Source of the DNA: a virus
DNA: 64,000 bases
Direction: 5' to 3' (one strand)
Virus record (IMG/VR): IMGVR_UViG_3300028829_005183
Location: 1 to 64,000 of that record
Notes under the pieces: generated by a model
What the model was told of the DNA's origin: nothing
Seen by the model: the letters and a program-made list of their open reading frames with translations, nothing else
Database searches by the model: none
Made by a program: the position numbers and the translations under genes
Shown: piece after piece, positions 1,783 through 59,696 of the stretch
Numbering within the stretch: position 1 is the stretch's first letter
Layout: each line of letters starts with the position of its first letter

Positions 1783-1913
1783 GTTCTAAAAAGAAAATAC
1801 TAAAAGAAGAACTCACAAATAAAGATTTGGAGAACATTCGTCTACTTATAAGATATGAGGTAGCACAAGTCATGTTTGACCTGTACAAAAAACGTAAAAC
1901 TTGGGGAGCGTAA
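1779..1913 (+). CDS. Small unknown protein (44 aa)
   Basis: A short gene with ATG overlapping the previous stop (ATGA) and its own TAA overlapping the protease ATG (TAATG). The product begins MSSKKKILKEELTNKDLENI and ends KRKTWGA. It is highly charged with a central amphipathic helix (IRLLIRYEVAQVMFDLY). The coupling on both sides is the main evidence that it is real. Function unknown; its place suggests a head-core accessory protein. Confidence 0.6.
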   Translation: MSSKKKILKEELTNKDLENIRLLIRYEVAQVMFDLYKKRKTWGA

Positions 1914-2527
1914 TGGGTAAATTACTGATAGATACAATTCCATTTAAAATGAGTAAATCTCAAATCAACGAATCCATTAAAGAAAACAATGGTAGGTTGA
2001 TTGTTGAGGGTGTACTACAACGCTCCGAAGCAGAAAATCAAAATGGCAGAATCTATCCAACTGAAATTCTCAAAAGAGAAGTTAAGAAATATATGGGTAG
2101 AGAAGTTAAGGAGAGTAGAGCATATGGTGAACTCGACCATCCGGAATCTTCAGTTGTTGAGTTAAAGAATACATCACACATTGTTAGAGATGTTTGGTGG
2201 GATGGTAACGATGTAATGGGTAAAGTTGAAATCTTAAAAACACCAGCAGGTAACATCCTAAAAGAATTGTTGGAAGCTGGGTGTACTGTTGGTATCTCAT
2301 CAAGAGGTATGGGTTCAGTTAAGGAATCTAACAATGGTGCTACTGTAACTGTAGAAGATGATTTTGATTTGATTTGTTGGGATTTTGTATCAAACCCATC
2401 AACACATGGTGCATTTATGAAACCAGTAAACGAGTCGGTGGGTTCTAAACCACAACCATCGTATAAGAAAATAAATACATTAGTGAGAAATATCATCTGC
2501 GAAATCGATGGTGTTTGTTCAATATAA
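1913..2527 (+). CDS. 21: Prohead maturation protease (gp21-like)
   Basis: This serine protease cleaves scaffold and capsid proteins inside the prohead before DNA packaging. The protein has 204 residues. Family hallmarks are visible: the N-terminal strand with RSEAENQNGRIYPTEIL, the catalytic His in YGELDHPE near residue 80, and the nucleophile Ser in GISSRGMGSV near residue 130. These match the U9/S77 herpes-protease-like fold. ATG 1913 is preferred over the in-frame TTG at 1901 because it overlaps the upstream stop (TAATG) and has GGGGAG seven bases before it. T4-type enzymes cut after Glu in [L/I]xE, and such sites are frequent in the neighbouring head proteins here. Confidence 0.92.
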   Translation: MGKLLIDTIPFKMSKSQINESIKENNGRLIVEGVLQRSEAENQNGRIYPTEILKREVKKYMGREVKESRAYGELDHPESSVVELKNTSHIVRDVWWDGNDVMGKVEILKTPAGNILKELLEAGCTVGISSRGMGSVKESNNGATVTVEDDFDLICWDFVSNPSTHGAFMKPVNESVGSKPQPSYKKINTLVRNIICEIDGVCSI

Positions 2528-4509: not shown

Positions 4510-4517
4510 TATTTATA
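4510..4517 (+). promoter_or_regulatory. Putative late promoter TATTTATA touching a terminator
   Basis: Exact TATTTATA whose last base is the first base of the terminator stem at 4517-4545. A transcript begun here would start within the hairpin and escape it, while read-through RNA would be terminated. It would drive the bS21 homologue at 4564. Confidence 0.45.
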
Positions 4518-4551
4518 TACACCTATCGGTATTCGGTAGGTGTATTTTTTT
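4517..4551 (+). terminator. Rho-independent terminator after head core genes
   Basis: Perfect 9-bp stem ATACACCTA (4517-4525) with TAGGTGTAT (4537-4545), an 11-nt loop and a following T run. Confidence 0.85.
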
Positions 4552-4563
4552 AACATAGAATAT

Positions 4564-4815
4564 ATGCAGAATAACAAACCTTACAAAAAAGCAAAACGTG
4601 AAGATATGGATATTCCGGGTTGTGCTACAGGAGTTAGAGTAATTAATGGTAACATTGAGTTGGCATTAAAAGTGTGGAAGCGTAAACTCAAAGATAGTAA
4701 TAAGCTTGAAGAGTTGAAAGACCGTAAAGAATATACCAAACCAACTACTAAGCGTAGAAAGCAAAAGAAAGATGCCATCAGAGCAGAATGGCGTAGAAGA
4801 AACTACGAAATTTAA
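4564..4815 (+). CDS. rpsU: Ribosomal protein bS21 homologue
   Basis: An 83-residue, strongly basic protein. Residues about 26-74 match bS21: VINGNIELALKVWKRKLKD, then NKLEELKDRKEYTKPTTKRR, then KQKKDAIR. The KPTT element and the Lys/Arg-rich C-terminal helix are typical. Some 20 N-terminal residues (KREDMDIPGCATG) are extra. bS21 sits on the 30S platform next to the 16S 3' end and affects start-site selection. In Bacteroidota it helps hide the anti-Shine-Dalgarno. ATG 4564 is preferred to the GTG at 4540, which lies in the terminator hairpin. No Shine-Dalgarno is visible. The gene is flanked by two terminators and has its own late promoter, so it forms a single-gene unit among the head genes. 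Confidence 0.88.
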   Translation: MQNNKPYKKAKREDMDIPGCATGVRVINGNIELALKVWKRKLKDSNKLEELKDRKEYTKPTTKRRKQKKDAIRAEWRRRNYEI

Positions 4816-4862: not shown

Positions 4863-4969
4863 GTAGATTATAATATCACCTCTAAATAGGTGGTTAAAAT
4901 ATTAGTATATAATATTCTATTAAGATTCTCAATAATCTTATTTCCAAAACAAATTTTAGGAGAACAATT

Positions 4970-5977
4970 ATGGCAAGAAGAAAAGACTTGTTATCTGAAG
5001 CTATCGCTGATGCAAAGGCCGTTAAAGAAACTGCTCTAGCAAATGCTAAGTTAGCTCTAGAAGAAGCGTTCACTCCAAAACTACAATCAATGATTTCTGC
5101 AAAGTTAGCTGAAGAAGCTGATGAAGAAGAAATAGACGAAGATTTGGATTCATCTGATTTAGGTACTGGCGATAACGCTGAACCTGCTGATGATGCATCT
5201 GATTCCTCTGATATCGAAAACGAAGAAGAATTGACTGAAGAAGAGGACATGGACGAAGAAGAGGAAGAAGTATCTGAAGAAGAAAACACAGATGAAACCT
5301 ACGGTGAAGGTGAAGAAGTGGATGAAGATGAAGATATGCATTCTGAAGAAGAAATGGGTGATGACATGGAAGATGATGATGAAGATGATTTAGATTTAGA
5401 ATCTGTAATCGCTGAGTTAGAAGCTGAAATGGATGAAGAAGAAGCCCCAGCTGATGAAAACTATCACGAAGAAGAGGACATGGACGAGGAAGAGGACATG
5501 GACGAAGAAGAAGAAATCGATTTGGATGAAGTAATCAAAACTTTGAAAGAAATGGAAGAGGGTGATTACAACGAAGAAGAGATGGATGAAGAAGAAGAGG
5601 TGGATGAAGAAGAAGATTTAGCAGGTGAATTAGAAGAAGCTTACAGCACAATCGCATCATTGAAGGATACTATCAATGAAGTAAACTTGTTGAACGCTAA
5701 ACTACTTTACACTAACAAATTATTCAGAACATTTGACTTGAACGAAAACCAAAAGGTAAAAGTTCTTGAAAACTTCGATAGAACATCTTCTGTAAGAGAA
5801 GTGAAGTTAGTTTTCTCAACTTTAGCTGAAAATTTAAATGTAGCTAAAAAGAAAAGAAGTGTTGTAAAAGAAGGATATGCTTCTAAAGCAACAAAGAGTT
5901 CAGCACCAAAGAAAGAAATTATTTCTGAAGGTAACGAGCTATCTGCTAGATGGAAAAAGTTAGCAGGACTAAAATAA
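4970..5977 (+). CDS. 22: Prohead core scaffolding protein (gp22-like)
   Basis: The main internal scaffold around which the gp23 shell assembles; it is later degraded by the prohead protease. It has 335 residues. The N-terminus is helical (MARRKDLLSEAIADAKAVKE, with an L-S-E|A protease site at residues 8-10). Residues about 50-215 are extremely acidic with repeats of EEDMDEEEDMDEEEE type. The C-terminal helix (LLYTNKLFRTFDLNENQKV) resembles the gp22/gp23-binding end. AGGAG lies eight bases before ATG. It directly precedes the capsid gene, as in T4. The Asp/Glu tract is far longer than I expect from T4 gp22 and is built of short near-repeats, so its length may vary between relatives. Confidence 0.88.
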   Translation: MARRKDLLSEAIADAKAVKETALANAKLALEEAFTPKLQSMISAKLAEEADEEEIDEDLDSSDLGTGDNAEPADDASDSSDIENEEELTEEEDMDEEEEEVSEEENTDETYGEGEEVDEDEDMHSEEEMGDDMEDDDEDDLDLESVIAELEAEMDEEEAPADENYHEEEDMDEEEDMDEEEEIDLDEVIKTLKEMEEGDYNEEEMDEEEEVDEEEDLAGELEEAYSTIASLKDTINEVNLLNAKLLYTNKLFRTFDLNENQKVKVLENFDRTSSVREVKLVFSTLAENLNVAKKKRSVVKEGYASKATKSSAPKKEIISEGNELSARWKKLAGLK

Positions 5978-6002: not shown

Positions 6003-7640
6003 ATGAATTTATCAAACATCCTAAATGAAGGAACATCTCATCAGAAGAGACTGTCTGAGGCAACTCGTGTACTCGCTTCAAAATGGGAAAAAACTGGTCT
6101 TCTTGAGGGTATTGCAAATGACGTTGAAAAAGCTGGCGTTGCAACTCTATTGGAAAACCAAGCTAAACAACTTGTAAAAGAGGCATCTTCTACAGGTACT
6201 TCAGCAAACTCAGAAGAGTGGGCTGGTGTTGCGTTACCATTGGTACGCAGAATTTTTTCTGAAATTGTAGCTAAAGATTTCGTATCGGTTCAACCAATGA
6301 ACCTACCATCGGGTCTTGTGTTCTACTTAGATTTCAAATATGGTACAGGTCAACCTGGTTTCGCTACCGGTAGCGGTAAAGATTCACAAGCTGATTCTGT
6401 ATTCGGTGTTACTGAAACTACTGATGACCCATCAGGTGGTTTGTATGGAGCTGGTCGCTTTGGTTACACTATTAACGATAGTGTATCTGTTGCACAAACA
6501 TTGGGTACTGCAGGCTCTAACAAATTCGTAACAGGTTCTGTTGCAGCTGTTGATTACAACTATGATACTAACTTCTCATCATCTTACGCACTTCAGATTG
6601 CTAGTGGTGAAGTATTTACTGCCGCTGTACCTACTGCATCTATCGCTGGATTCGATGATAAAGGCATCAGAGCATTCAGAGTATCATCAGCTCAAGTAAC
6701 TGACCAATTCCCACAATTCACTAAGTTGAGTGGTGGTGATGTTGAGTTTGTATTGAGAGGTACATTAGATGCTACAGATGACTTGAGAGTAAAGTATCAC
6801 AAACAACCAACTGATGTATCAAGAGGTGATTTCGAAGCTAGTGGTAACCAGTTAACTGGTAATCCAGAAGCAGCTCTTGATATTCCAGAATTGAACGTAG
6901 AGATGAAGTCCCTACCAATTGTTGCTAAGACACGTAAGTTGAAAGCACAATGGACTCCAGAATTCGCTCAAGACTTGAACGCATATCACTCAATTGATGC
7001 TGAAGCTGAATTGACTTCAATGCTTTCTGAGTACATCTCACAAGAAATCGATTTCGAAATTTTGGATATGTTGATTCAGGACGCTAAAACAGAAGGTTTC
7101 TGGTCAGCTCAAATCGGTAGAGAGTGGAATGGTAATAACTTCGGTAATTACAATTCAACCCAATCTGCAGCTGCAGCATTTACTCAGCAAGCATGGTATC
7201 AGACACTTGGTACTGTAATTGCAGGTGTATCTAACAAAATTCACCAAAAAACATTGCGTGGTGGTGCTAACTTCTTAGTAGTATCTCCTGATGTTGCCAC
7301 TATCATCGAATCTATCCCAGGATACGCTTCGACTGCAGATAATGGTGATGCTCAATTCGCATTTGGTGTAACTAAAGTTGGTTCATTGAACAGCAGATTC
7401 CAAGTTTATAAGAATCCTTATATGAAAGAGAACGTAATCTTGATGGGTTACAGAGGAACACAATTCCTTGAAACTGGTGCTGTATACGCTCCATATATCC
7501 CATTGATTATGACTCCGCTTGTATACGACCCTAAAAACTTCACTCCAAGAAAAGGTGTAATGACTCGTTACGCTAAGAAAATGTTGAGAGGTGAGTTCTA
7601 CGGTAAGGTATATGTGGATGGCTTACACTTAATTCAGTAA
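6003..7640 (+). CDS. 23: Major capsid protein (gp23-like)
   Basis: A 545-residue HK97-fold shell protein. Recognisable gp23 features are the pro-region with ATLLENQAKQLVKE (residues 47-60), then the expected maturation cut after E60 before ASSTGT. Next come EEWAGVALPLVRRIFSEI, FVSVQPMNLPSGLVFYLDF, and a C-terminal part with YKNPYMKENVILMGYRG and YAPYIPLIMTPLVYDP. The first residues, MNLSNILNEG, repeat the tag seen in the internal head protein at 2538 and give an additional possible cut after E9. A strong AAAGGAG precedes ATG. A strong terminator follows, so this is the end of the head transcript. Confidence 0.97.
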   Translation: MNLSNILNEGTSHQKRLSEATRVLASKWEKTGLLEGIANDVEKAGVATLLENQAKQLVKEASSTGTSANSEEWAGVALPLVRRIFSEIVAKDFVSVQPMNLPSGLVFYLDFKYGTGQPGFATGSGKDSQADSVFGVTETTDDPSGGLYGAGRFGYTINDSVSVAQTLGTAGSNKFVTGSVAAVDYNYDTNFSSSYALQIASGEVFTAAVPTASIAGFDDKGIRAFRVSSAQVTDQFPQFTKLSGGDVEFVLRGTLDATDDLRVKYHKQPTDVSRGDFEASGNQLTGNPEAALDIPELNVEMKSLPIVAKTRKLKAQWTPEFAQDLNAYHSIDAEAELTSMLSEYISQEIDFEILDMLIQDAKTEGFWSAQIGREWNGNNFGNYNSTQSAAAAFTQQAWYQTLGTVIAGVSNKIHQKTLRGGANFLVVSPDVATIIESIPGYASTADNGDAQFAFGVTKVGSLNSRFQVYKNPYMKENVILMGYRGTQFLETGAVYAPYIPLIMTPLVYDPKNFTPRKGVMTRYAKKMLRGEFYGKVYVDGLHLIQ

Positions 7641-19176: not shown

Positions 19177-20340
19177 ATGGCAGTAAATATTCCGATATGG
19201 CCAGGTTCATCATCGTTTTCGGAGGGTAGTACTCCATTTGGACACTACGATACTGATAATGAGTTCACATCATCAGCAGATAAGACTGCCGGTTGGTGCG
19301 CCAAACGTTTGGGGTATCCTATAGTTGATATTGAACTACAAGATATCAATTTTTATGCCTGTTTCGAAGAAGCGGTTACCGAATACTCATCTCAAGTCAA
19401 TCAATTTAACATTAGAGAGAATCTACTTAATATTCGTGGTAACTCCACTGGTTCAAATCTGAGCCAGACTGAGTTGAACGCAAATTTAGGTGGAATTGTA
19501 TCTCTCGCAAAAGATTATGGTACTGAAGCGGGTAGTGGTGGTAGAGTAACATACTACACTGGTTCGTTTGTAATGAAATCAGGACAACAGGTCTATGATT
19601 TGACAGATACGGATTCGGTATCATTTGAAAGTGGTACGCCTGGAGTTGATACCATAGAGATTAAGAAAGTACTACACACAGCTCCACCTGCGATGGTTAG
19701 ATATTTTGACCCATTTGTAGGAACTGGATTGGGTTCGCAGCAAATGATGGATACTTTTGGTTGGGGTAACTACTCACCGGGTGTATCGTTTATGATGCAA
19801 CCACTTTACGATGATTTGTTAAGATTGCAGGCGATTGAGTTCAACGATTTAGTTCGTAAATCTCAATATGGGTTTGATTTAAAGAATGATAAGATACGAA
19901 TCTTCCCAATTCCACAATATGGTGATAGGGGTACAAAAGTTCATTTCCACTACATATTAGACTCGGAGCGTAGAGACCCAGTAGTTTCGAGGTCTGTTGT
20001 ATCTGATTACTCAAATGCGAAGTATGATAGAATGGAGTACAAACACATTAATCATGTTGGTAAACGGTGGGTTGAGAAGTACACATTGGCACTTGCCAAA
20101 GAAATGTTGGGTGCGGTTAGAGCTAAATTTAGTTCAGTTCCAATCCCAAATTCGGAAATAACATTAGATGGGGCAGATTTAAGAAGTGAAGCGGCATCGG
20201 AAAAAGAAATCTTAATTTCAGAATTGAGAGAAAACTTAGAAGCTACTTCTAGAAAAGCATTGTTACAAGCACAGCAAGAAGAATCAGAAGCGATGGAGCA
20301 GACTCTTAACAGAGTCCCTCGTGCAATATATATAGGATAA
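19177..20340 (+). CDS. 13: Neck protein (gp13-like)
   Basis: A 387-residue head-completion/neck protein that joins portal and tail. The segment WCAKRLGYPIVDIELQDINF, then YACFEEAVTEYSSQV, matches the start of T4 gp13 (RRLGAPIINVELT..IYDCI..ALELY). A later segment YDDLLRLQAIEFNDLVRKSQ, then IRIFPIPQYG and KVHFHYILDSERRDP, agrees with the family. It is longer than T4 gp13, with an extra N-terminal arm and a charged, Gln-rich C-terminal helix (LLQAQQEESEAMEQTLNRVP). AAGGAG lies before ATG. The next gene follows after 3 nt. Confidence 0.82.
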   Translation: MAVNIPIWPGSSSFSEGSTPFGHYDTDNEFTSSADKTAGWCAKRLGYPIVDIELQDINFYACFEEAVTEYSSQVNQFNIRENLLNIRGNSTGSNLSQTELNANLGGIVSLAKDYGTEAGSGGRVTYYTGSFVMKSGQQVYDLTDTDSVSFESGTPGVDTIEIKKVLHTAPPAMVRYFDPFVGTGLGSQQMMDTFGWGNYSPGVSFMMQPLYDDLLRLQAIEFNDLVRKSQYGFDLKNDKIRIFPIPQYGDRGTKVHFHYILDSERRDPVVSRSVVSDYSNAKYDRMEYKHINHVGKRWVEKYTLALAKEMLGAVRAKFSSVPIPNSEITLDGADLRSEAASEKEILISELRENLEATSRKALLQAQQEESEAMEQTLNRVPRAIYIG

Positions 20341-22107: not shown

Positions 22108-24468
22108 ATGGCAGAAAGAATAGTAAGTCCTGGCGTATTTACGAGAGAAAAGGACTTGTCATTTCTACCTCAAGGGATTGGTGAGATTGGCGCAGCGTTA
22201 ATCGGTTCAACAGTTAAGGGACCGGCGTTTGTACCAACACAAGTAGAATCTTTTCAAGAGTTTCAACAAGTATTCGGTGGATTGACAGAAGATTCATATC
22301 TACCATATACCGCACAAGCTTATTTGGAAGATGCAGGAACTGCAACAATCGTTAGGGTATTAGGGCAAGATGGATACACTCTTGAAAATCCAGTGGCATT
22401 AACAGTATCATCATCGCATGGTAGTAAAGTAGTAGCAGTACTACATCCAACAAATCAAATCACATCCGATACAGATGTGTTTGATGAAACTTTAATAGTA
22501 GACCACTTAGGGTCATCTGATGTAAGTGCATCACTATTTACACTAACATTATCAGGTTCTGAAGCAGCTGATACTGATTTTTCAGCATCTTTGAATCCAA
22601 CAAATGATAACTACTTCACTAAGCTATTTGGATTCGGACCAAGAGGTGGTGAAGAGGCATACGTTTACTCAAACTTCAAAACATTCCAATCAGCATCATT
22701 TGCAACTGGTGAAATTCCTGTAGTAACATTGGATGTTGCTAAAGATATTGATTACACAAAAGCATATTCTGAGGCAAATACACCTTGGATTACATCACAA
22801 AAAGTTGGTGGAAACACAACAAACTTAATTAAGTTCCATACGCTATCACATGGTACTGCAACTAACTATGAATTCAAAATTGGTATTCAGGATATTAAAG
22901 CAGCAGGTACTGTTGCGGGTTCTGAGTATGGTTCATTCTCAGTAGTTGTGAGAAGAGTAGACCAGGATAAAATAAATGGAACTCCATTTGTTGGGGTTGT
23001 TGATTCTGATATCAGACCTAACTTGATTGAAACATTCCAAAATGTAAATTTGGATCCTGATTCACCAAACTACATTGCTAGAGTAATTGGAGATAAGTAC
23101 ATCACTGTTGATGCTAATGGTAAATTATCAACCAATGGTGACTATCCAAACAATTCAGCAAATGTTAGAGTTGAGGTTTCATCAGTTGTTGCTAACAAAG
23201 GTATTGACCAATCATTAGTTCCATTTGGATTTGCTAAATTACAGAACCCATTCGGAACTGCATTTGCACTACCAAACCCAACATATGTTGTATCACAATC
23301 AATCAATGAATCTTACAATGATAAGGCGTTTTTAGGTTATAATTTTGATTTTGCAACAACAGATAACTTAAATTTCTTATTACCAACACCAGATTCCGCA
23401 ACTGCGACTGTAGGTGATGCATTCTACTTAGGAGATTGTCATGATAACACAGCAAACGCAGCCGTAGCATTGACTGGTACATTAAGTTCTAAAAAGTTCT
23501 TAGTACCCTTCCAAGGTGGTTTTGATGGATTTAAACCATCTAGAACTGTATCGTTGGGTAACGATATTTTAGCAGGAAATTCACAAGGATATGATTTATC
23601 ATCCAATACAGCGACTGGTACTGTAGCATACAGAAAAGCAATAAATGCTGTATCTAATCCTGATGAATTTGATATTAATATGCTAGTTATTCCAGGCGCT
23701 ATCCACAGATTACACTCTTCAGTAACAACATTTGCTAAAGATATGTGTGAGGATAGACAAGATACATTCTTCGTAATGGATTCGGCAGCGTATGGGGATA
23801 GTATTTCAACTACTACTAACACTGTTCAATCATTTGATTCGAACTATGTAGCTACATACTACCCTTGGGTTAAAATATTGAACACAGATAAGAATAAGCC
23901 GGTATGGGTTCCACCATCTGTAGTACTTCCGGGTGTTATAGCATTTAATGACCAGGTTGCCGCTGAATGGTTTGCACCTGCTGGATTAAACAGAGGTGGG
24001 TTAACTTCAGTAATTGAAGCTAAAACCCGTTTGACTAGAACTGAAAGAGATGATTTGTATGAGGGTAGAGTTAATCCAATCGCAACGTTCCCTGGTCAAG
24101 GTGTAACGGTATTTGGACAAAAAACACTACAGGCAAAACCATCGGCATTGGATAGAATCAATGTAAGAAGATTGATGATTGCAGTGAAGAAGTTCATCGC
24201 ATCTTCAACTCGTTACTTGGTGTTCGAAAACAATACAGCAGCTACGAGAAATAGATTCTTATCAATCGTTAATCCTTACTTAGAATCAATCCAACAAAGG
24301 CAAGGTTTGTACGCATTCCGTGTGGTGATGGATGAGACTAACAATACACCGGATGTGATTGATAGAAACATTATGGTTGGTGAGATTTTCCTACAACCAG
24401 CGAAGACTGCAGAATTTATAGTTCTTGACTTTAATGTATTACCAACTGGGGCAGCGTTTCCAGAGTAA
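22108..24468 (+). CDS. 18: Tail sheath protein (gp18-like)
   Basis: A 786-residue contractile sheath subunit. The N-terminus SPGVFTREKDLSFLPQGIGE, followed by AALIGSTVKGPAFVPTQVES and FQEFQQVFGG, is diagnostic. The C-terminal domain contains WFAPAGLNRGGLTSVIEAKT, NPIATFPGQGVTVFGQKTLQ, and the conserved end with RVVMDETNNTPDVIDRNIMV and PAKTAEFIVLDFNVLPTGA. It is longer than T4 gp18 (659 aa); the extra residues lie in the surface-exposed middle (about 80-450). AATAGGAGA precedes ATG. A strong terminator follows. Confidence 0.97.
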   Translation: MAERIVSPGVFTREKDLSFLPQGIGEIGAALIGSTVKGPAFVPTQVESFQEFQQVFGGLTEDSYLPYTAQAYLEDAGTATIVRVLGQDGYTLENPVALTVSSSHGSKVVAVLHPTNQITSDTDVFDETLIVDHLGSSDVSASLFTLTLSGSEAADTDFSASLNPTNDNYFTKLFGFGPRGGEEAYVYSNFKTFQSASFATGEIPVVTLDVAKDIDYTKAYSEANTPWITSQKVGGNTTNLIKFHTLSHGTATNYEFKIGIQDIKAAGTVAGSEYGSFSVVVRRVDQDKINGTPFVGVVDSDIRPNLIETFQNVNLDPDSPNYIARVIGDKYITVDANGKLSTNGDYPNNSANVRVEVSSVVANKGIDQSLVPFGFAKLQNPFGTAFALPNPTYVVSQSINESYNDKAFLGYNFDFATTDNLNFLLPTPDSATATVGDAFYLGDCHDNTANAAVALTGTLSSKKFLVPFQGGFDGFKPSRTVSLGNDILAGNSQGYDLSSNTATGTVAYRKAINAVSNPDEFDINMLVIPGAIHRLHSSVTTFAKDMCEDRQDTFFVMDSAAYGDSISTTTNTVQSFDSNYVATYYPWVKILNTDKNKPVWVPPSVVLPGVIAFNDQVAAEWFAPAGLNRGGLTSVIEAKTRLTRTERDDLYEGRVNPIATFPGQGVTVFGQKTLQAKPSALDRINVRRLMIAVKKFIASSTRYLVFENNTAATRNRFLSIVNPYLESIQQRQGLYAFRVVMDETNNTPDVIDRNIMVGEIFLQPAKTAEFIVLDFNVLPTGAAFPE

Positions 24469-24570: not shown

Positions 24571-25059
24571 ATGGCACAATTATTAGACCCAACTGAAGTA
24601 ATGTTCACATCATTCGAACCGAAGATGTCGAACCGCTTTATTATGTATGTAGAAGGAATTCCGGCATATTTAATTAAAGCAGCCAACAGACCTGAGATAA
24701 CCAATGGTAAAGTTACCGTTGACCATATCAATGTAAGACGATATGTAAAAGGAAGAAGTGAGTGGAGTGATTTGAGTATTTCATTATACGACCCAGTAGT
24801 TCCATCAGCAGCGCAAGCAGCAATGGAGTGGGTAAGACTACACCACGAATCGGTAACTGGTCGTGATGGATACTCTGATTTCTACAAAAAAGATATCACA
24901 TTCAATAGTTTGGGTCCTGTTGGTGATAAAGTAGAAGAGTGGACACTTAAAGGAGCTTACATTCAGACAGCAAAATTCTCAGATATGGATTACACTGGTG
25001 AAGATTTAGCAACCGTAGATTTAACACTTACATACGATTACGCAATACTACAATACTAA
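24571..25059 (+). CDS. 19: Tail tube protein (gp19-like)
   Basis: A 162-residue tube subunit, matching the length of T4 gp19 (163 aa). Recognisable segments are FEPKMSNRFIMYVEGIPAYL, IKAANRPEI, WSDLSISLYDPVVPSAAQAA, RDGYSDFYKKDITFNSLGPV, DKVEEWTLKGAYIQTAKF and the terminal LATVDLTLTYDYAILQY. ACGGAG precedes ATG. It is a single-gene unit between two terminators. Such isolation fits the need for a very high copy number. Confidence 0.96.
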   Translation: MAQLLDPTEVMFTSFEPKMSNRFIMYVEGIPAYLIKAANRPEITNGKVTVDHINVRRYVKGRSEWSDLSISLYDPVVPSAAQAAMEWVRLHHESVTGRDGYSDFYKKDITFNSLGPVGDKVEEWTLKGAYIQTAKFSDMDYTGEDLATVDLTLTYDYAILQY

Positions 25060-35287: not shown

Positions 35288-35554
35288 ATGAATAAAGTAA
35301 AAGAATTTGAAAAAGCTATTGAGGGTGTTAAGTTCACTCCAGCTCAAAAAAAGATTGTTGATTTAATCCTTAAAGGATATGAAATCGAAGTTGTTAACAA
35401 ACACCATATGAATGGTGGTGAAATGATGTGGAAATCCCCACATTCAGATTATTTAGAGCATGCTGGTAAAGTTTACAAAGCATTCTACAATGTATTCTAC
35501 CAAATCAAAAAACAAAAAGGAATTGATATTCCTACCAATCGATTTGTAAGTTAA
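35288..35554 (+). CDS. Unknown small protein (88 aa)
   Basis: An 88-residue basic protein. It begins MNKVKEFEKAIEGVKFTPAQ, continues KKIVDLILKGYEIEVVNKHH and MNGGEMMWKSPHSDYLEHAG, and ends PTNRFVS. The FTPAQKKIVDLILKGY segment resembles the start of a helix-turn-helix, but the rest does not support a specific family. It is the first gene under the first Bacteroidota-type promoter in the window, so it is probably early or middle. Function unknown. Confidence 0.65.
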   Translation: MNKVKEFEKAIEGVKFTPAQKKIVDLILKGYEIEVVNKHHMNGGEMMWKSPHSDYLEHAGKVYKAFYNVFYQIKKQKGIDIPTNRFVS

Positions 35555-35574
35555 CAAATAATTTTGTATATTTG
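35543..35574 (+). promoter_or_regulatory. Bacteroidota-type promoter, leaderless arrangement
   Basis: TTTG (35543-35546) and TATATTTG (35567-35574), a perfect TAnnTTTG box, 20-nt spacing. The ATG at 35579 begins only 4 nt after the box. The -33 box lies inside the preceding gene. Confidence 0.8.
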
Positions 35575-35578
35575 ATGT

Positions 35579-36841
35579 ATGGTTGAATTTCTTAGTGAAG
35601 GAAGTATATCTATAAACAAAGTATATATTCATCCCGTTTGGGAGAGTATATCGGTACACCCACATAATGATGGGTTATCGTTGTTGTATATATATGATAT
35701 AGAATCCGATAGGGAAATTGTAATCAACCTAAAAAACATCGATATACATATAACCTCTTTGGAGAAGTTTAAGTTTCTATTTAAAGAGGCTTATGTGTAC
35801 GATAACAAATCGTTGATGAATCACATTCAGATTCCAAATTCATATGATGCAAGTTTGGTTAAGTACTTACAATCGAACCACCCATTGGAATCGAAACTAA
35901 CTCCAACACATACATTCTATCAACGTAGGTTCAGTAACCTAAAGGGAGTAAACAATCTTATTCCAATCTCTAAACATATAGAATCCATCAGAGATACAAA
36001 AGATGAATTCATAGAGTATTACGATTTGGGCGGGGGAGAGTTCGATTGTGTGAAGAAATTTGAAAATTTCTATATCAAGCCACTTCACAAAGTAGAAAAG
36101 AATGGAATCAAAACCGAAGGGGGTATGGAGTGGACTCAGTATCACCCATTCACTATCACATCACGACCTTCAAACAATTATGGTGGGGTAAATTATGCGG
36201 CATTGAATAAAGATGATGGGAGTAGGGATAGATTCGTAAGTAGGTTCAAAGGGGGGAAGTTGATTCAATTTGATTATGATGCATATCACCCTCGTATCAT
36301 TGGTAAAATGGTAGATGAACCTATTCCAATAGATATAAGCGGTCACCAAGCACTTGCCGATATGTATGGTGTATCCTATGGTGAATCAAAGGGAATTACG
36401 TTCCGACAACTATATGGTGGGGTACAATCGGAATATCTACATATTCCGTTGTTTTCCAAAGTTTCACACAAAATTGATTTGATGTGGATGGAATTCAATC
36501 GTAGGGGATATATTAAAACGCCATTGGGTAGGAGATTATCAAAGAGTAGTTTGAAAGATATGAATGCCAACAAACTATTCAACTATTTACTCCAAGCAAC
36601 AGAAACGGAGTTGAATATGAGAATACTAACTAAGGTGGTAGACTTTTTAAAAGATAAGAAGTCCAAAATGGTTTTATACACTTATGATTCATATTTATTG
36701 GATATACATCCCGATGAAGTTAGTATTTTACAGAATTTAAAGATACTTATAGAAGGGAATGGATTCCCTGCAAAAATGGAAATTGGAGATAGATATTCTG
36801 AAATGAAATCTACAGATATTGAAACACTGGATATAGTATGA
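35579..36841 (+). CDS. Short family-A DNA-polymerase-like protein
   Basis: A 420-residue protein whose C-terminal half has PolA palm/finger motifs. Before motif A, TITSRPSNNYGGVNYAAL (192-209) mimics the T-x-R-x-x-S-x-x-P-N region. Motif A is LIQFDYDAYHPRIIGKM (228-244; pattern DYSQIELR). Motif B is ESKGITFRQLYGGV (269-282; pattern K-x-x-x-x-F-x-x-x-Y-G). Motif C is VLYTYDSYLLDI (365-376; H-D-E becomes Y-D-S). Both catalytic Asp are kept. The N-terminal 150 residues show only a vague exonuclease-like trace (VYIHPVWESISVHP). Family-A enzymes are usually much longer. The replicase of this phage is family B (gene at 51701), so this may be a repair, priming or regulatory enzyme. Confidence 0.75.
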   Translation: MVEFLSEGSISINKVYIHPVWESISVHPHNDGLSLLYIYDIESDREIVINLKNIDIHITSLEKFKFLFKEAYVYDNKSLMNHIQIPNSYDASLVKYLQSNHPLESKLTPTHTFYQRRFSNLKGVNNLIPISKHIESIRDTKDEFIEYYDLGGGEFDCVKKFENFYIKPLHKVEKNGIKTEGGMEWTQYHPFTITSRPSNNYGGVNYAALNKDDGSRDRFVSRFKGGKLIQFDYDAYHPRIIGKMVDEPIPIDISGHQALADMYGVSYGESKGITFRQLYGGVQSEYLHIPLFSKVSHKIDLMWMEFNRRGYIKTPLGRRLSKSSLKDMNANKLFNYLLQATETELNMRILTKVVDFLKDKKSKMVLYTYDSYLLDIHPDEVSILQNLKILIEGNGFPAKMEIGDRYSEMKSTDIETLDIV

Positions 36842-43323: not shown

Positions 43324-43355
43324 TTTGGTAAATACAATAATAATTCGTATATTTA
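43324..43355 (+). promoter_or_regulatory. Bacteroidota-type promoter, leaderless arrangement, gp41
   Basis: TTTGG (43324-43328) and TATATTTA (43348-43355), 20-nt spacing. ATG 43360 starts 4 nt after the box. Confidence 0.8.
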
Positions 43356-43359
43356 ATCT

Positions 43360-44718
43360 ATGGATAAACTTGGAAATAAGTTTGGAACAAGCTTTCAGAT
43401 AAAGATTATATCAGCACTATTATCCGATAGGATATTTTTACAAACGGTGTACGATATACTCAAACCTGAGATGTTCGATTCTGAGGCAAATGAGTGGCTT
43501 GTAACCAAAACGTTATCACACTTTGATGTATACTCAACGTTACCAACATTAGATGTATTTAAAAACGAAGTAGATAGGGTTGAGAGGGATGTTCTTAAAC
43601 AATCTATCGTAGATAACCTAAAGCAAGTTTGGAATCAATTAGAATCTGATGATTTAAATTACGTTAAAGAGCAAACCTTAGAGTTCTGTAAGAATCAAAC
43701 ATTTAAGAGTGCTATCTTAGAATCGGTTGGACTGTTAGAAGAAGGGAAGTTTGATGTAATAAAATCTAAGATTGATTCCGCTATGAAAGCGGGGCAGGAT
43801 ACCGATATTGGACACGAATATAAGGAGAATATCATTGAAAGGTATGAATCTACAGTTAGAGATGTAATCTCTTGTGGATGGGATGTGATTGATGAATTGG
43901 TAGATGGTGGGTTTGGTAAAGGTGAACTTATTATGTTCGCAGCACCACCGGGTATTGGTAAATCTTGGGCATTGGTAAATGTTGGAATGGCTGCTGCTAA
44001 AAAAGGTAAGACTGTAGTTCACTACACATTGGAGTTGAATGAGGGATACGTGGGTCAGAGATACGATGCAGTATTAACTGGAACTGCTGTACCTAACCTT
44101 AAATTTAATATCGATGATGTACGAACTCAAGTGGAAGGGCTGAGTGGTGATATCATTGTGAAACATTGGCCTACTAAATCTGCTGGATTGAATACTATGA
44201 GAGCATCATTAGATAAACTGAAGTTGCAAGGTAAGAATCCTGATGTGATTATAGTAGATTACGCTGATTTGTTAAAGGGTAATAGTAGAAAAGAACGACA
44301 CGAAGAGTTAGAAGAGATTGTAGAGGGATTGAGAGGCATCGCGGGTGAATATGAAGTTCCATTATTTACAGCATCTCAAATCAATCGTAGTGGTGCTAAT
44401 GATGATGTTATTACTGGTACTTCTATAGCTGGCTCATTCTCAAAATTGATGACTGCAGATTTTGTAGTTTCATTGAGTAGAAAAATTGAGGATAAGTTAG
44501 CTGGAACAGGCAGATGGCACGTTATCAAAAACCGATTTGGACCAGATGGTATGACTTTACCTTCAAAAGCTAATATGAGTAATGGTAGAATCAATATATA
44601 TTCCGATGATTCCATTGATGGTAAACAAGCACAAAGTGATATGTCAAAGGGGGAGAGTTTGGTAAGAAAGAATTTGTTACAAAAATATAATGATATGAAG
44701 GGGGATATTGACTTCTAA
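43360..44718 (+). CDS. 41: Replicative DNA helicase (gp41, DnaB family)
   Basis: A 452-residue hexameric 5'-3' helicase. The N-terminal 150 residues form the helical DnaB-like domain. The RecA-type core has Walker A APPGIGKS (about 195-202), HYTLELNEGYVGQRYDAVLT, Walker B PDVIIVDYADLLKG (about 294-307), and FTASQINRSGANDDVITGTS with IAGSFSKLMTADFVVSLSRK. The C-terminus is charged (NLLQKYNDMKGDIDF). No primase domain is fused. There is no Shine-Dalgarno, since the mRNA should begin at or next to the ATG. Confidence 0.95.
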   Translation: MDKLGNKFGTSFQIKIISALLSDRIFLQTVYDILKPEMFDSEANEWLVTKTLSHFDVYSTLPTLDVFKNEVDRVERDVLKQSIVDNLKQVWNQLESDDLNYVKEQTLEFCKNQTFKSAILESVGLLEEGKFDVIKSKIDSAMKAGQDTDIGHEYKENIIERYESTVRDVISCGWDVIDELVDGGFGKGELIMFAAPPGIGKSWALVNVGMAAAKKGKTVVHYTLELNEGYVGQRYDAVLTGTAVPNLKFNIDDVRTQVEGLSGDIIVKHWPTKSAGLNTMRASLDKLKLQGKNPDVIIVDYADLLKGNSRKERHEELEEIVEGLRGIAGEYEVPLFTASQINRSGANDDVITGTSIAGSFSKLMTADFVVSLSRKIEDKLAGTGRWHVIKNRFGPDGMTLPSKANMSNGRINIYSDDSIDGKQAQSDMSKGESLVRKNLLQKYNDMKGDIDF

Positions 44719-47569: not shown

Positions 47570-47809
47570 ATGAAGTATTTGTATTTTTCAGCACAATGGT
47601 GCGGCCCTTGTAAAAGCTTGGGGCCAATTATGAACGAAGTATCAACACATATACCCGTTCAAAAAATAGATGTAGATAAAGACTACGAAATGGCACAAAA
47701 GTATGGTGTCAGAAATGTCCCAACGGTTGTGTTGGTCAATGGTGATTCAGAAATCACTCGTATTATAGGTTCACATTCAAAGCAAAGATATTTGGATGCT
47801 ATCAAATAA
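47570..47809 (+). CDS. Thioredoxin
   Basis: A 79-residue minimal thioredoxin: beta strand KYLYFSAQ, active site WCGPCK at residues 10-15, VQKIDVDKDYEMAQKYGVRN then VPTVVLVNG with the cis-Pro. It is shorter than host thioredoxin (about 105 aa), like other phage versions. It presumably reduces the CxxC tail of the upstream NrdA. GGAG precedes the ATG. The -33 box of the next promoter lies within its last codons. Confidence 0.92.
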   Translation: MKYLYFSAQWCGPCKSLGPIMNEVSTHIPVQKIDVDKDYEMAQKYGVRNVPTVVLVNGDSEITRIIGSHSKQRYLDAIK

Positions 47810-47822
47810 TTTTGTATATTAG
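47791..47822 (+). promoter_or_regulatory. Bacteroidota-type promoter, near-leaderless, MazG-like gene
   Basis: TTTGG (47791-47795, inside the thioredoxin gene) and TATATTAG (47815-47822), 20-nt spacing. ATG 47828 is 5 nt after the box. Confidence 0.75.
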
Positions 47823-47827
47823 TAGTT

Positions 47828-48262
47828 ATGAAAGAAGTATTAAATAAACTAAAAGAGTTTCACTCAACGTATGGGCACCCAATCGAATTAGAGCCCACAG
47901 CTCAAACAGAAGAAATGGCTGAGTTGAGATACAAATTGGCAAAAGAAGAGTTAGATGAGTATTTGGAGGCAAATCAAAACGATGACCCTATTGAAATAGC
48001 AGATGCACTAGCTGACCAGTTGTATATTTTGTTGGGAACAATGTTGGTTCACGGAATGCATGATGTTATCGAAGATGTGTTCAATGAAGTACATCGTTCC
48101 AATATGTCAAAGTTAGGTGAAGATGGTAACCCCATCTATCGTGATGACGGTAAGGTTATGAAAGGACCAAACTACACTAAACCAGAATTGGGTAGTATTA
48201 TATCAAACGTTTGGAAAGAGAAACGAGCTCAGTTAAACATTCCGTTTAATGAGGAAGTTTAG
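47828..48262 (+). CDS. MazG-like / all-alpha NTP pyrophosphohydrolase
   Basis: A 144-residue protein. RYKLAKEELDEYLEA followed by DPIEIADALADQLYILLGTM gives the E-E-x-x-E ... E-x-x-D metal motif of the all-alpha NTP pyrophosphatases. The following NEVHRSNMSKLGEDGNPIYR, then DDGKVMKGPNYTKPEL, is a common phage signature of this group. It may hydrolyse non-canonical or competing (d)NTPs, or (p)ppGpp-related nucleotides. In a phage with DNA-modification genes, removal of an unmodified or toxic nucleotide is plausible. It is followed by an HTH gene one base away. Confidence 0.85.
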   Translation: MKEVLNKLKEFHSTYGHPIELEPTAQTEEMAELRYKLAKEELDEYLEANQNDDPIEIADALADQLYILLGTMLVHGMHDVIEDVFNEVHRSNMSKLGEDGNPIYRDDGKVMKGPNYTKPELGSIISNVWKEKRAQLNIPFNEEV

Positions 48263-50563: not shown

Positions 50564-51697
50564 ATGAACTTTTGGGATAGTGTAGATTATAACAATGCTA
50601 GAAAGGTGTTGGTGATACCTAATATCACTAACTCTTCTAATATTGAAAAAGATTCGTTTATTGATGTGATACATAATCATATCAAAGGACTGGAGAAGTA
50701 TGGTGAGTACTATTGGCATGTTTTAGTACCAACTGGAAATGTTACGAAGAAACTAAACTTACCAAATGTGAAACAACATCAGATTGATATTCCAGGTGAT
50801 ATGATGAACCAACGTTCGTTCCCATCTGATAAGTTGATGAAACTTCTAAAGGATATCGATTATGATGTAATCTATTCACACCTGCCCGATTGGCCTCAAG
50901 TCGGTAGATACAAAAACGATATCAACACTAAAATAGTTGGGTATTGCCATTGGTGGGAAATGAAGTCCTGTAATGGTGTAGACCGTAGACCTGGTAAAGC
51001 AAAGTGGTTGTGGTTACCCATCGAACTATTAGGTATATCTCAGATGGAAACCTGTTACTTAAATACACAAGACCAGAAGAATAGGGTGTTGGAAGAGGCG
51101 AGAGAAACATTCAATGAAGAGTTTGTTCAGAAGTTGGATGATATTCTCACTGTTTGGAACTTAGGATTGGAAGAATCCAAAATAGTATCCGAACCAAAAT
51201 CAGAAAAGGAAAAGGTGATTGTATTCAACCACCGAGCAGCTGCATACAAGGGGTATCCTAAGTTTATGGAGTTGATGGAAGAATATCGTAAACAGCGACA
51301 GGATTTCAAAGTTTGGATTCCGCAATTAAATGGTAAACCACCATATGGGTGGGTAGATACTACCAAAGTACCAAAGCATGAGTACTATAAGAGATTGCAG
51401 GATTGTACCGTCGGTGTACAGATGAGGCAAACGAATTATGGTTGGAGCGTGAGTGGTACTGATTGTATGATGAATGGAACTCCAATGATTTGGCAGGAAT
51501 CCGATTGTTATCACGAAATCGACCCGAATGGTATGTTCTTCAAATACAAAAAAGAATTCTTTGAGTATTTGGATAAGATGTTAGATGATGAACCATTCCG
51601 AAAAGAGCAAGAGTTAAAATCAGTAGAGAGGGCAAACGAGCTATCTAAGAATGAGGGTAAAATGCTTGGAGAACTACACAAAAAGTTGTATATTTAA
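50564..51697 (+). CDS. Glycosyltransferase (GT-B type)
   Basis: A 377-residue protein. Residues about 15-120 look like the N-terminal Rossmann part (RKVLVIPNITNSSN, YDVIYSHLPDWPQ, KIVGYCHWWE). The C-terminal half has the sugar-nucleotide domain (KVIVFNHRAAAYKGYPKFME, FKVWIPQLNGKPPYGWVD, VGVQMRQTNYGWSVSGTDCM, then MNGTPMIWQESDCYHEI). The gene directly precedes gp43 and is read from an early-type promoter, so DNA glucosylation is attractive, as with T4 alpha/beta-GT. I do not see T4 AGT/BGT-specific motifs. Virion or host glycan targets remain possible. Its first residues MNFWDS resemble MNFWDT of the DruA-like protein at 54976. Confidence 0.75.
   Translation: MNFWDSVDYNNARKVLVIPNITNSSNIEKDSFIDVIHNHIKGLEKYGEYYWHVLVPTGNVTKKLNLPNVKQHQIDIPGDMMNQRSFPSDKLMKLLKDIDYDVIYSHLPDWPQVGRYKNDINTKIVGYCHWWEMKSCNGVDRRPGKAKWLWLPIELLGISQMETCYLNTQDQKNRVLEEARETFNEEFVQKLDDILTVWNLGLEESKIVSEPKSEKEKVIVFNHRAAAYKGYPKFMELMEEYRKQRQDFKVWIPQLNGKPPYGWVDTTKVPKHEYYKRLQDCTVGVQMRQTNYGWSVSGTDCMMNGTPMIWQESDCYHEIDPNGMFFKYKKEFFEYLDKMLDDEPFRKEQELKSVERANELSKNEGKMLGELHKKLYI
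51666..51696 (+). promoter_or_regulatory. Bacteroidota-type promoter, leaderless arrangement, gp43
   Basis: TTGG (51666-51669) and TATATTTA (51689-51696), 20-nt spacing, lying entirely within the 3' end of the glycosyltransferase gene. ATG 51701 starts 4 nt after the box. Confidence 0.75.
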
Positions 51698-51700
51698 GGT

Positions 51701-54217
51701 ATGTATCAAAACGCTTATTACGAAAAAGAGGGTGGTATCATCCATTGCTGGGATGATGAAAAAGGTTACTTTACCAAAAAGTATCGTAACTATGGTTATG
51801 TTAGAGATGGTAATGGTTCTTACGAATCAATCTATGGGGAACGGTTGAAGAAGATTAACTTTTGGAAAAACGAAGATAATCTAAAACTTTATGAATCGGA
51901 TGTAAATGAAATGACCCGTTTCTTAATCGATGAATATGGTGATTCAGACGAGGTATCCACTGGTCATACTGTACTAACCTTTGATATTGAGGTAGAGATG
52001 AATAGTGGACTGCCCGATACAGATAAAGCAGAGAATACTATGACTTCTGTAGCATTCCACGATTCAGCAACAAACGATTATTATGCTTATGTACTAAGTG
52101 AGGGTGAAGAGATAAACAAAACTATCAAAGGGGCTAAAGTCCGTTCCTTTCGTAGTGAAGAAGATATGTTGATAGCATTTGTAAATGCTTGGGAAGAGAT
52201 TTCACCGACTATCATTACGGGATGGAACATTGACTTCTTTGATGTTACATATTTGTACAATCGATTAAAGCGGGTACTTGGGACATCAACAGCAAATAGG
52301 CTATCCCCAATCAGAAAAGTACATTGGAACAAATATCGTAAACGTTACATCATCGCAGGTGTATCTGCATTGGATTACATCGCATTATTTAAGAACTTTA
52401 CATATACGGAATATCCCAACTATCGCTTGGATACTATCGCTAAATTAGAATTAGGTAGAGGGAAGATTGAGTACGAAGGAAACTTAGACCAATTATTCAG
52501 AGATGATATTGAGAAGTTTGTTGAATATAACTTAGTTGATGTTGAGTTGGTGGTAGATATGGATAAGAAACTACAATTCATCGATTTGGCTAGAGCAATA
52601 TGCCATGCGGGTCATGTGTTCTATGAAGATTTCTTATTCTCATCGAAATGGTTAGAGGGAGCAATTCTCACATTCCTTAGACGGAGTGGTAGGGTAGCTC
52701 CGAACAAACCACAGCGGATGTTTAAAAATGCTGATGGTTCTGATGGGGAAGGTAAGTTTATAGGTGCATATGTAAAACAACCAAAGCCCGGCCTTTACAA
52801 ATGGGTATACGATTTGGATTTAACATCACTATACCCATCAATCATTATGAGTATCAATATCTCACCTGAAACTAAGATTGGTAAGGTGAAGAACTACTCC
52901 GCTGAAGAATCTATGAAGGGAAATATTGAATCATATTCTATTATAGATAATAATGGTAGTGAATCAAAGCCCGTATCAAAAGAACACTTTACCAACTTTA
53001 TTGAACAACAAAAGCTATCAATAGCATCAAATGGTGTGTTGTATTCACAGAATAGGGTTGGTATCATACCTGAGATTCTTAACGTGTGGTTTGATAAGAG
53101 AGTAGAGTACAAAGACCTGATGAAAAAATATGGTAAAGAGGGTAATGATGAACTTTATAAGTTCTACTCTCAGCGCCAGTTGGTACAAAAAATTATGTTG
53201 AATTCCCTTTACGGAGTATTGGGATTACCATCATTCAGATTCTACGATGTTGATAACGCAGAAGCAGTAACACTTACAGGTCAGACTGTAATTAAAACAA
53301 CTGAGATGATTGCCAATCAATACTATAGTAAGAACATTGGTGAAACAAAAGATTACAACATCTATGTTGATACTGATTCTGTATTCTATGAAGCAGCACC
53401 ATTGGTAAAGGCTAGGAATCCTAATATTGATGTAACATCTGATAAAGAAATGATTCCAGCTATTCTATCAGTTGCTAAAGAGGTTGAGGACCATATCAAT
53501 AAAGTATATGATTCAATGGCATTGAAAATGTTCAATATTAATTCACATAGATTTGATATTAAGCAAGAAACTATCGCTAAGGGTGGGTTTTGGGTATCTA
53601 AGAAAAGATACGCTCAATGGATTATCAACGATAACACTGTAGATTGTGATAAGTTGGATGTGAAAGGATTGGATGTGAAACGTTCATCATTCCCAACTTA
53701 CTTCAAAGAAGTGATGAGTACTGTGTTGATGGATATCCTAAAGGATGAGAACAAAGATAAAATTGATGAGTATATTCTTAGGAAGAAAGATGAGATGAAA
53801 ACTACCAACTTTATCGATATAGCAAAGAATTCAGCAGTTAAAGGTATGAGTAAGTATACATTTAAGAATCAAGCACTGGGTGAGTTTATGAAAGGAACAC
53901 CAGCGCATGTTAAAGCAGCACTTACTTACAATCAACTATTGAAATATTATAATGCAGCATTTAAATTTGAACCAATGAAAGATGGTGATAAGATTAAGTG
54001 GGTGTATTTGAAACCTAATCCATTAGGATTAGACTCCGTTGGGTTGACGGGATATAACGACCCGAAAGAGATTTTGGATTTGGTAGAACAGCATATAGAT
54101 TATGAGCTAATTTGGACAAAAGAATTAGAGAATAAGTTAGATGATTTCTACAAAGCAATGGGGTGGGAAAAGCCAAATCCGAATCTAGCAAAAGCATCAC
54201 AATTTTTTGGATTTTAA
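51701..54217 (+). CDS. 43: Family-B DNA polymerase (gp43)
   Basis: An 838-residue replicase with proofreading. Exo I is TFDIEVEMN (about 93-101), Exo II is TGWNIDFFDVTYLYNRL (about 173-189) and Exo III is VEYNLVDVELV. Polymerase motif A is DLDLTSLYPSIIMS (about 369-382), motif B QLVQKIMLNSLYGVLG, and motif C YVDTDSVFYE (about 553-562). The C-terminus ends AKASQFFGF, a PIP-type sliding-clamp binding sequence. The gene is complete with no intein or split. There is no Shine-Dalgarno, in line with a leaderless start. Confidence 0.97.
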   Translation: MYQNAYYEKEGGIIHCWDDEKGYFTKKYRNYGYVRDGNGSYESIYGERLKKINFWKNEDNLKLYESDVNEMTRFLIDEYGDSDEVSTGHTVLTFDIEVEMNSGLPDTDKAENTMTSVAFHDSATNDYYAYVLSEGEEINKTIKGAKVRSFRSEEDMLIAFVNAWEEISPTIITGWNIDFFDVTYLYNRLKRVLGTSTANRLSPIRKVHWNKYRKRYIIAGVSALDYIALFKNFTYTEYPNYRLDTIAKLELGRGKIEYEGNLDQLFRDDIEKFVEYNLVDVELVVDMDKKLQFIDLARAICHAGHVFYEDFLFSSKWLEGAILTFLRRSGRVAPNKPQRMFKNADGSDGEGKFIGAYVKQPKPGLYKWVYDLDLTSLYPSIIMSINISPETKIGKVKNYSAEESMKGNIESYSIIDNNGSESKPVSKEHFTNFIEQQKLSIASNGVLYSQNRVGIIPEILNVWFDKRVEYKDLMKKYGKEGNDELYKFYSQRQLVQKIMLNSLYGVLGLPSFRFYDVDNAEAVTLTGQTVIKTTEMIANQYYSKNIGETKDYNIYVDTDSVFYEAAPLVKARNPNIDVTSDKEMIPAILSVAKEVEDHINKVYDSMALKMFNINSHRFDIKQETIAKGGFWVSKKRYAQWIINDNTVDCDKLDVKGLDVKRSSFPTYFKEVMSTVLMDILKDENKDKIDEYILRKKDEMKTTNFIDIAKNSAVKGMSKYTFKNQALGEFMKGTPAHVKAALTYNQLLKYYNAAFKFEPMKDGDKIKWVYLKPNPLGLDSVGLTGYNDPKEILDLVEQHIDYELIWTKELENKLDDFYKAMGWEKPNPNLAKASQFFGF

Positions 54218-58712: not shown

Positions 58713-58744
58713 GTTGGATATTCCAAATAATTTTCTTATATTAG
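58713..58744 (+). promoter_or_regulatory. Bacteroidota-type promoter, leaderless arrangement, GTG gene
   Basis: GTTGG (58713-58717) and TATATTAG (58737-58744), 20-nt spacing. GTG 58749 starts 4 nt after the box. Confidence 0.8.
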
Positions 58745-58748
58745 TGTA

Positions 58749-59696
58749 GTGAAAGATAGTAAGATAAATAACGTATTTTCTCTTGGTATTAGAGAACCCA
58801 GTGATGGAGATGTTGGGGTATCATACTCCCAATACACAATGTATGCTAATTGCCCACATCAATGGAAGCTGAACTATATGGATGGTAACAGAACGTTTGA
58901 CCCATCCATACATTTGGTGTTTGGTACAGCAATGCATGAAACACTACAAGAGTGGTTGGATATACTGTACAACAAATCACCCAAAGAAGCATCTGAGATA
59001 GATTTGGGTAAGATGTTGTATGAGTGTATGATTACCGAATATACAAAGATGCGTAAACAGACTGGTGTTGAATTTAGTTCACCATCTGAAATGGAGGAGT
59101 TCTTAGAAGATGGAATTGAGATTCTGAACTTTGTTACAAAGAATCGCTTGGATTACTTCAATACACGTCATATGAAACTTCTAGCCATTGAGTTACCAAT
59201 CTACGCTAAAGCTATGGAATCTCATAATGTATATATGAGAGGGTTCTTAGATTTGGTGTTTGAGGATACATATGAGAATAAGATTCAGATTTGGGATATC
59301 AAAACATCAACAATGGGTTGGAATAAGTGGCAAAAAGCAGATAAAACCAAAACAGCTCAGTTGGTTCTGTACAAAAAATTCCTATCCGAACAATTTGGTT
59401 ACCCAATTGATAACATCAGTACCAAATACTTCATCGTAAAGAGAAAGTTGCACGAAGGTATGATGTTTGCTCAAAAGAGGGTGCAAGAATTTGTACCTTC
59501 TAGTGGTAAACCCACACTAAATAAGATAACAAAAAGTTTTGAAGATTTCATCAGAAATTCATTCAACGAAGATGGTAGCTACCGAAAAGAATCTGAGTTC
59601 CCTGCTATGGCGGGTAAGAACAATAAGAATTGTAAGTGGTGTCCGTTCAAAAATGATTTTGAGAAATGTCCGAAAGAGAATAGACATAAAGTATGA
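58749..59696 (+). CDS. Cas4/AddB-like PD-(D/E)XK nuclease with Fe-S cluster
   Basis: A 315-residue nuclease. The first cysteine is in MYANCPHQWKL (Cys35). Catalytic elements are MRGFLDLVFED (Asp168) and IWDIKTS (Asp183, Lys185), followed by the QxxLY motif (AQLVLYKKF). Three more cysteines lie at the C-terminus (NCKWCPFKNDFEKC), completing a four-Cys iron-sulfur cluster of the Cas4/AddB type. It could process DNA ends in recombination-dependent replication. No CRISPR or cas1/2 is nearby. The start is GTG. ATGA couples it to the transglycosylase. Confidence 0.88.
   Translation: MKDSKINNVFSLGIREPSDGDVGVSYSQYTMYANCPHQWKLNYMDGNRTFDPSIHLVFGTAMHETLQEWLDILYNKSPKEASEIDLGKMLYECMITEYTKMRKQTGVEFSSPSEMEEFLEDGIEILNFVTKNRLDYFNTRHMKLLAIELPIYAKAMESHNVYMRGFLDLVFEDTYENKIQIWDIKTSTMGWNKWQKADKTKTAQLVLYKKFLSEQFGYPIDNISTKYFIVKRKLHEGMMFAQKRVQEFVPSSGKPTLNKITKSFEDFIRNSFNEDGSYRKESEFPAMAGKNNKNCKWCPFKNDFEKCPKENRHKV

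Follow-up and report, generated by a model that had tools for sequence, protein, structure and literature searches.

The window analyzed here is the first 64 kb (64,000 nucleotides) of a metagenomic IMG/VR virus record of 113,339 bp, and every gene recognized in it lies on the + strand. Its left half holds a T4-like structural module with head protease, capsid, sheath, connector, and tail-fiber genes, and its right half holds replication and nucleotide-metabolism genes, e.g., RecA and ribonucleotide reductase. A gp23-type capsid, a contractile sheath, and a gp21-type protease (PHROGs 138, 23, and 207) identify the virus as a T4-like myovirus. The late genes with a Shine-Dalgarno (SD) core, all on the + strand, include those for the head maturation protease (1913..2527; PHROG 207, E = 1e-54; SD GGGGAG), the major capsid protein (6003..7640; PHROG 138, E = 2e-74; SD AGGAG), a gp13-like head-tail connector (19177..20340; PHROG 211, E = 6e-13; SD AGGAG), and the tail sheath (22108..24468; PHROG 23, E = 2e-72; SD AGGAG). 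The gene at 4970..5977 (SD AGGAG) returned no match in a PHROG search and probably encodes the scaffold protein, since it lies between bS21 and capsid as in relatives; a candidate tube-like protein (24571..25059; SD GGAG) has the size and place of the annotated tail tube of Microcystis phage Mel-JY01.

Three hallmarks of Bacteroidota are encoded in the record beyond the window, namely a Por_Secre_tail protein, a CHU_C protein, and a TonB-dependent barrel, and the nonstructural half of the window contains Bacteroidota-type promoters of the form TTG-N19-21-TATATTW. Together, the type IX secretion tails and these promoters suggest that the host belongs to the Bacteroidota, and a cultured relative infects Flavobacterium. 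The secreted-type genes (record G000, 84045-84287, 105878-107776, and 107786-109822; L003 and L004), which comprise Por_Secre_tail, CHU_C, and an M43-type peptidase with a dockerin-like domain, lie near the TonB-dependent receptor barrel and are unusual cargo for a phage. Named by eye from their translations, a complete-looking GroEL-like chaperonin gene occupies positions 96390-97997 of the same record (L003:12390-13997), and a long run of ORFs at 64039-79349 (L002) resembles glycosyltransferases, sugar-nucleotide enzymes, methyltransferases, and a NeuB-like synthase.

With the protease upstream and the scaffold and capsid genes downstream lies the gene for a phage bS21 of 83 residues (4564..4815, +), which was assigned by Pfam, PDB, and viral alignments. 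The Pfam Ribosomal_S21 profile (PF01165) matches this ORF at 39.4 bits (E = 4.8e-10; cut-off 27), residues 59-62 form the KPTT element, and the gene stands singly, flanked by a terminator-like hairpin on one side and the scaffold gene on the other, which bears out the preliminary description of a single-gene bS21 homolog with KPTT in the late head region. No second bS21 was found within the 113,339-bp record. The protein has close relatives in further metagenomic phages, encoded at the same head-module place in those examined; among named phages, Mel-JY01 was the sole match in a tblastn search with bS21.

A gapless phmmer alignment against the PDB, at an offset of 19, pairs the protein with the bS21 of 7jil (Flavobacterium johnsoniae) and of 9i5v; relative to F. 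johnsoniae bS21 it has an N-terminal extension of ~19 residues, and Arg73 stands opposite host Tyr54. In the host, Tyr54 stacks on A1534 and steers the 16S tail into its pocket (PMC9976891), and it is present in the bS21 of 80/80 sampled Bacteroidota genomes. The Tyr that contacts the anti-Shine-Dalgarno (ASD) is thus not intact in the phage protein, as had been suspected, and with Arg73 in that column the protein falls outside the Bacteroidia-type (ASD-sequestering) bS21s as judged by Tyr54. Arg also occupies this position in its close relatives. The accompanying remark that the protein looks proteobacterial was only half right, since the best PDB match is 9i5v, which carries the Bacteroidota signature (E = 8.8e-5) and scores better than E. 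coli (2.8e-4).

To compare leaders within the window, we scored an SD as GGAG, AGGA, or GAGG at -4 to -20. Throughout the analysis, starts were taken as the first ATG, and early or late class was assigned from gene content and promoter motif. An SD precedes 18/30 late and 4/31 nonstructural starts, and non-start ATGs score at 9-10%; starts from an automatic ORF caller give 15/28 late vs. 1/26 nonstructural (background about 10%). AGGAG or GGAG stands ahead of each of the capsid, scaffold, sheath, tube-like, and gp13-like genes, and late SD cores are mostly 4-5 nt long. The octamer TATTTATA occurs 12 times on the + strand and twice on the - strand; 11 copies lie in the late half, mostly 28-59 nt ahead of late starts, and from this distribution we consider it a likely late promoter. 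The TTG-N19-21-TATATTW motif occurs nine times on the coding strand and once on the other (1.2 expected), with all nine coding-strand copies at 35-64 kb. Five of these nine end 5-6 nt ahead of a start codon, so their mRNAs are probably leaderless: a TTG-N20-TATATTT promoter at 35544..35581 ends 5 nt before the ATG at 35579, and those at 43325..43362, 47792..47830, 51666..51703, and 58714..58751 (all +) end 5, 6, 5, and 5 nt before the ATGs at 43360, 47828, and 51701 and the GTG at 58749, respectively. Both observations of the preliminary description, AGGAG-type SDs on late genes and leaderless-looking early genes, were therefore reproduced, and the late-vs.-early SD enrichment that it proposed to check is present.

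The bS21 gene has a late promoter and a leader of another kind. A copy of TATTTATA at 4510..4517 (+), recognized by its strand bias and its conservation upstream of bS21 in relatives, is followed by a hairpin with arms CACCTATCG and GGTAGGTG and then a T run (4520..4551, +; fold -13.8 kcal/mol, z -1.8), and no SD stands ahead of the start codon at 4564. The order is thus late promoter, hairpin with U run, and start codon, and both promoter and hairpin are conserved across 16 phages, whose stems show paired changes. The promoter leads directly into this terminator-like hairpin (CACC..GGTG plus T run), where the 5' end of the mRNA is expected; the hairpin may act by terminating transcription from upstream, by protecting the 5' end, or by attenuation. 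The same leader hairpin was seen in the window (4510-4551) and at L005-L009, L131, L133, L138, L164, L318, L334, L341, L347, L348, and L350. A shorter CACCT-AGGTG hairpin lies at 4877-4892 of the window, after TATTTATT at 4855 and upstream of the scaffold gene.

An SD is also absent from the bS21 gene of all 71 related phages outside the Mel-JY01 subclade (0/71), in which 51.8% of late genes (p = 3e-23 vs. bS21) and 64/71 capsid genes carry one. Host rpsU shows the reverse, with an SD in 57/80 sampled genomes, where it serves autoregulation (PMC9976891). The SD-free phage gene could be translatable by SD-blind host ribosomes and stand outside an rpsU-type autoregulatory loop. In the Mel-JY01 subclade, 10/12 bS21 genes do have an SD (L116, which is Mel-JY01, and L169, L299, L303, L306, L310, L311, L316, L319, and L326), and the N-terminal extension is the shortest, at 10-12 residues. 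A bS21 gene with its own SD fits poorly with the idea that the protein bootstraps its own synthesis, and a different regulation or host is possible in this subclade.

To examine how bS21 and late SDs are distributed among relatives, we collected 133 representatives by capsid searches (<95% capsid identity; many records are fragments). A clean gap in HMM scores separates 83/133 phages that carry bS21 from 50/133 that do not. Late-gene SDs amount to 528/1036 (51%) in the bS21-positive group vs. 69/642 (10.7%) in the bS21-negative group, against backgrounds of 8.9% and 12.6%, and the capsid gene itself has an SD in 76/83 vs. 1/50. The capsid tree requires six or more gains or losses of bS21, and SD usage matches bS21 state at 127/133 tips. 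Well-supported independent pairs are nearly always concordant, though at n = four they are too few for a significant sign test; in a phylogenetic regression (PGLS) with fitted lambda on a quick tree, the p value is 5e-11 when SD fraction is the response and 2e-22 when pairing energy is. To see whether the negatives might encode bS21 elsewhere, 25 of their whole records (up to 183 kb) were searched with Pfam, along with the genome of Flavobacterium phage immuto and the L178 record, and no bS21 was found; many of the negatives are fragments.

Several simpler accounts were rejected. Chance or base composition does not account for the SDs, as non-start ATGs give a background of 5-22% in the same genomes and the backgrounds of the two groups are similar. 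Late SDs are not a general trait of Bacteroidota phages: in immuto, phiST, phi38:1, PTm1, and crAss001 they are not significantly above background. Nor is bS21 universally sufficient for SD use, because bS21-positive phages that lack late SDs exist both outside the clade (L015, L017, L018, L020, and L023-L026) and inside it (L118 and L302).

The preliminary description had singled out the Tyr-to-Arg change as what sets the phage protein apart, and as a determinant of SD use this is not supported. Of the 83 bS21s, 39 have Arg or Lys at position 54, 41 have Tyr or Phe, and 3 have another residue. The two main types use SDs equally, both in a comparison of 31 Arg vs. 29 aromatic loci (60 loci were aligned) and by PGLS (p = 0.29 and 0.32); Arg for Tyr54 is thereby ruled out as the sole determinant. 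Phage bS21s of the Tyr54 type should still stack on the ASD, yet they go with SDs equally, which counts against a reading by ASD release. In 23/39 of the basic-54 proteins, an aromatic residue follows three residues later, one helical turn on. There is one place where the residue-54 idea looks right: L013 and L014 have nearly the same bS21 core as L015, L017, and L018, with Arg vs. Tyr at 54 and SD use of 41-45% vs. 15-16%.

The N-terminal extension tracks SD use more closely. Late SDs accompany every protein whose extension is 10 residues or longer (81/81; lowest 22% of genes), and the two bS21s with shorter N termini, L118 and L302, occur without them. L118 (LR756508) is an uncultured phage of 484 kb with a related head module, whose bS21 has Met54 and no N-terminal extension and whose late genes have no SDs. 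Lys and Arg make up ~25% of the extension residues. Among the bS21-positive phages that lack late SDs, short N termini predominate, but outside the clade the picture is mixed; with this and only two exceptions inside the clade, we favor the basic N-terminal extension over residue 54 as the determinant, as a candidate rather than a result.

Bacteroidota ribosomes hide their ASD and normally ignore SD signals. Starting from what can be read in the genomes, namely the bS21 gene, the two promoter classes, the split of SDs between them, the SD-less bS21 leader, and the co-occurrence of bS21 and late SDs among relatives, we lean toward the view that the late-expressed phage bS21 changes how translation starts in the infected Bacteroidota cell. 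Unmodified host ribosomes, with the ASD held in the bS21-bS18-bS6 pocket, would translate early phage genes from mRNAs that are leaderless or lack an SD. The late promoter would then drive bS21 from an mRNA that has no SD, so that SD-blind host ribosomes should still be able to make the protein. Phage bS21 would replace host bS21, the ASD would become available, and the new ribosomes would favor the SD-bearing late mRNAs for capsid, scaffold, sheath, and connector. The steps have some precedent: in F. johnsoniae, ribosomes whose bS21 is C-truncated or carries Y54A translate SD mRNA 3-5 times more (PMC9976891), and a pelagiphage bS21 enters E. coli ribosomes (PMC6375957). Host rpsU needs an unusually strong SD (PMC9976891), and the short cores of the late SDs set against it argue for a change in the ribosome itself. 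The original proposal that late mRNAs gain access to the ASD through phage bS21 has strong comparative support in the 133 phages, in the restriction of SDs to late-promoter genes, and in the bS21-negative relatives that have no late SDs; loss of Tyr54 as the cause is not supported. A fuller version has, in our judgment, an even chance of being correct. It holds that the bS21 swap shifts the initiation rule from leaderless or SD-less early to SD-dependent late, that an SD-independent bS21 mRNA starts the switch, in reverse of the SD-driven autoregulation of the host, and that what acts is the N-terminal extension rather than the missing Tyr54.

The strongest competitor, which we nevertheless regard as unlikely, is that bS21-positive phages infect Bacteroidota (or relatives) whose ribosomes accept SDs, so that late SDs and bS21 both mark a host group. 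Hosts here are inferred, not observed, the related Mel-JY01 is recorded from Microcystis, and its 80-128 kb region also has SDs (25% of genes), all of which this account would accommodate. When genes are sorted by promoter in four bS21-positive genomes, including that of the window phage, however, an SD is found at 39/63 late-type vs. 4/62 early-type genes (p = 2e-11); early genes without and late genes with SDs in one genome mean that the same host shows both behaviors. Two bS21-negative genomes with the same late promoter have an SD at none of their late-promoter genes (0/17 and 0/17), and bS21-negative members nested inside the bS21-positive group also lack SDs. Furthermore, each group has members with type IX secretion tails and hence includes Bacteroidota phages, so a phylum-level difference in host does not explain the contrast.

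We give still less credence to a mechanism in which host bS21 is removed or outrun, bS21-free ribosomes translate the SD mRNAs, and the phage protein does no more than replenish or tune the pool afterward. A preference for SD mRNAs is indeed seen in F. johnsoniae ribosomes without bS21, and the same study (PMC9976891) raises a phage protease that targets host bS21; however, depletion leaves unexplained both the loss of late SDs whenever phage bS21 is absent and the constant head-module position of bS21 in nearly all relatives. Least probable, though by a shade, is ordinary replacement, in which phage bS21 keeps ribosomes complete and working late in infection with no effect on SD use: Chen et al. 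(PMC9723584) infer from a conserved aromatic at 54 that host-like function may hold, but the association of bS21 with SDs across phages, an SD-less bS21 gene amid SD-bearing neighbors, and the lack of SDs in relatives that share the late promoter but have no bS21 all speak against it.

A phage bS21 that redirects initiation would bear on why so many aquatic phages carry this gene. The comparison of late mRNAs with and without bS21 turns the "specialized ribosome" idea into a prediction, that phage bS21 raises expression of SD reporters and not of SD-less ones, and the 83 + 50 phages form a natural set for mapping the determinant, with the N-terminal extension as a candidate in place of Tyr54. 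If true, this would be a viral takeover of translation through changed ribosome composition, and phage bS21 could serve as a tool for SD-based expression in Bacteroidota.

That phage bS21 is expressed late and replaces host bS21 has already been proposed (PMC9723584, PMC6375957, PMC7162821). The huge Bacteroidetes phages of Chen et al. 2022 resemble the window phage in having bS21 beside head genes, inferred late expression, Bacteroidota hosts, and a proposed replacement of host bS21 (PMC9723584); they differ in that bS21 lies on the reverse strand of 293-331 kb genomes, whereas here it is co-directional in a T4-like phage. Position 54 is aromatic in 61/61 of their proteins, so the Arg of the window protein is unlike that set, and SD usage of the phages is not reported in that study. 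Mizuno et al. 2019 showed that phage bS21 enters the 70S in E. coli and drew no link between S21 and SDs (PMC6375957); Al-Shayeb et al. 2020 noted N-terminal extensions of phage S21 and connected missing SDs to S1, not S21 (PMC7162821). We found no report of a link between phage bS21 and SD usage in the literature searched, a scope outside which preprints and most subscription journals fell, and this link appears to be new. The nearest regulatory parallel is the autoregulation of F. johnsoniae, in which bS21 occupancy decides the use of SD mRNAs by ribosomes (McNutt et al. 2023, PMC9976891); there rpsU has a strong SD, whereas the bS21 of the window phage has none and the SDs are on other late genes. 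The same T4-like head module occurs in two cultured or named phages. Flavobacterium phage immuto (MW353175; capsid 56% identical to that of the window) has no bS21, late SDs at 3/39 genes, and the same late-promoter motif, with an SD at 0/17 of the genes that it precedes. Mel-JY01 (PP395634; capsid 60% identical) has an Arg-type bS21 and late SDs like the window phage, and differs from it by the SD on its bS21 gene.
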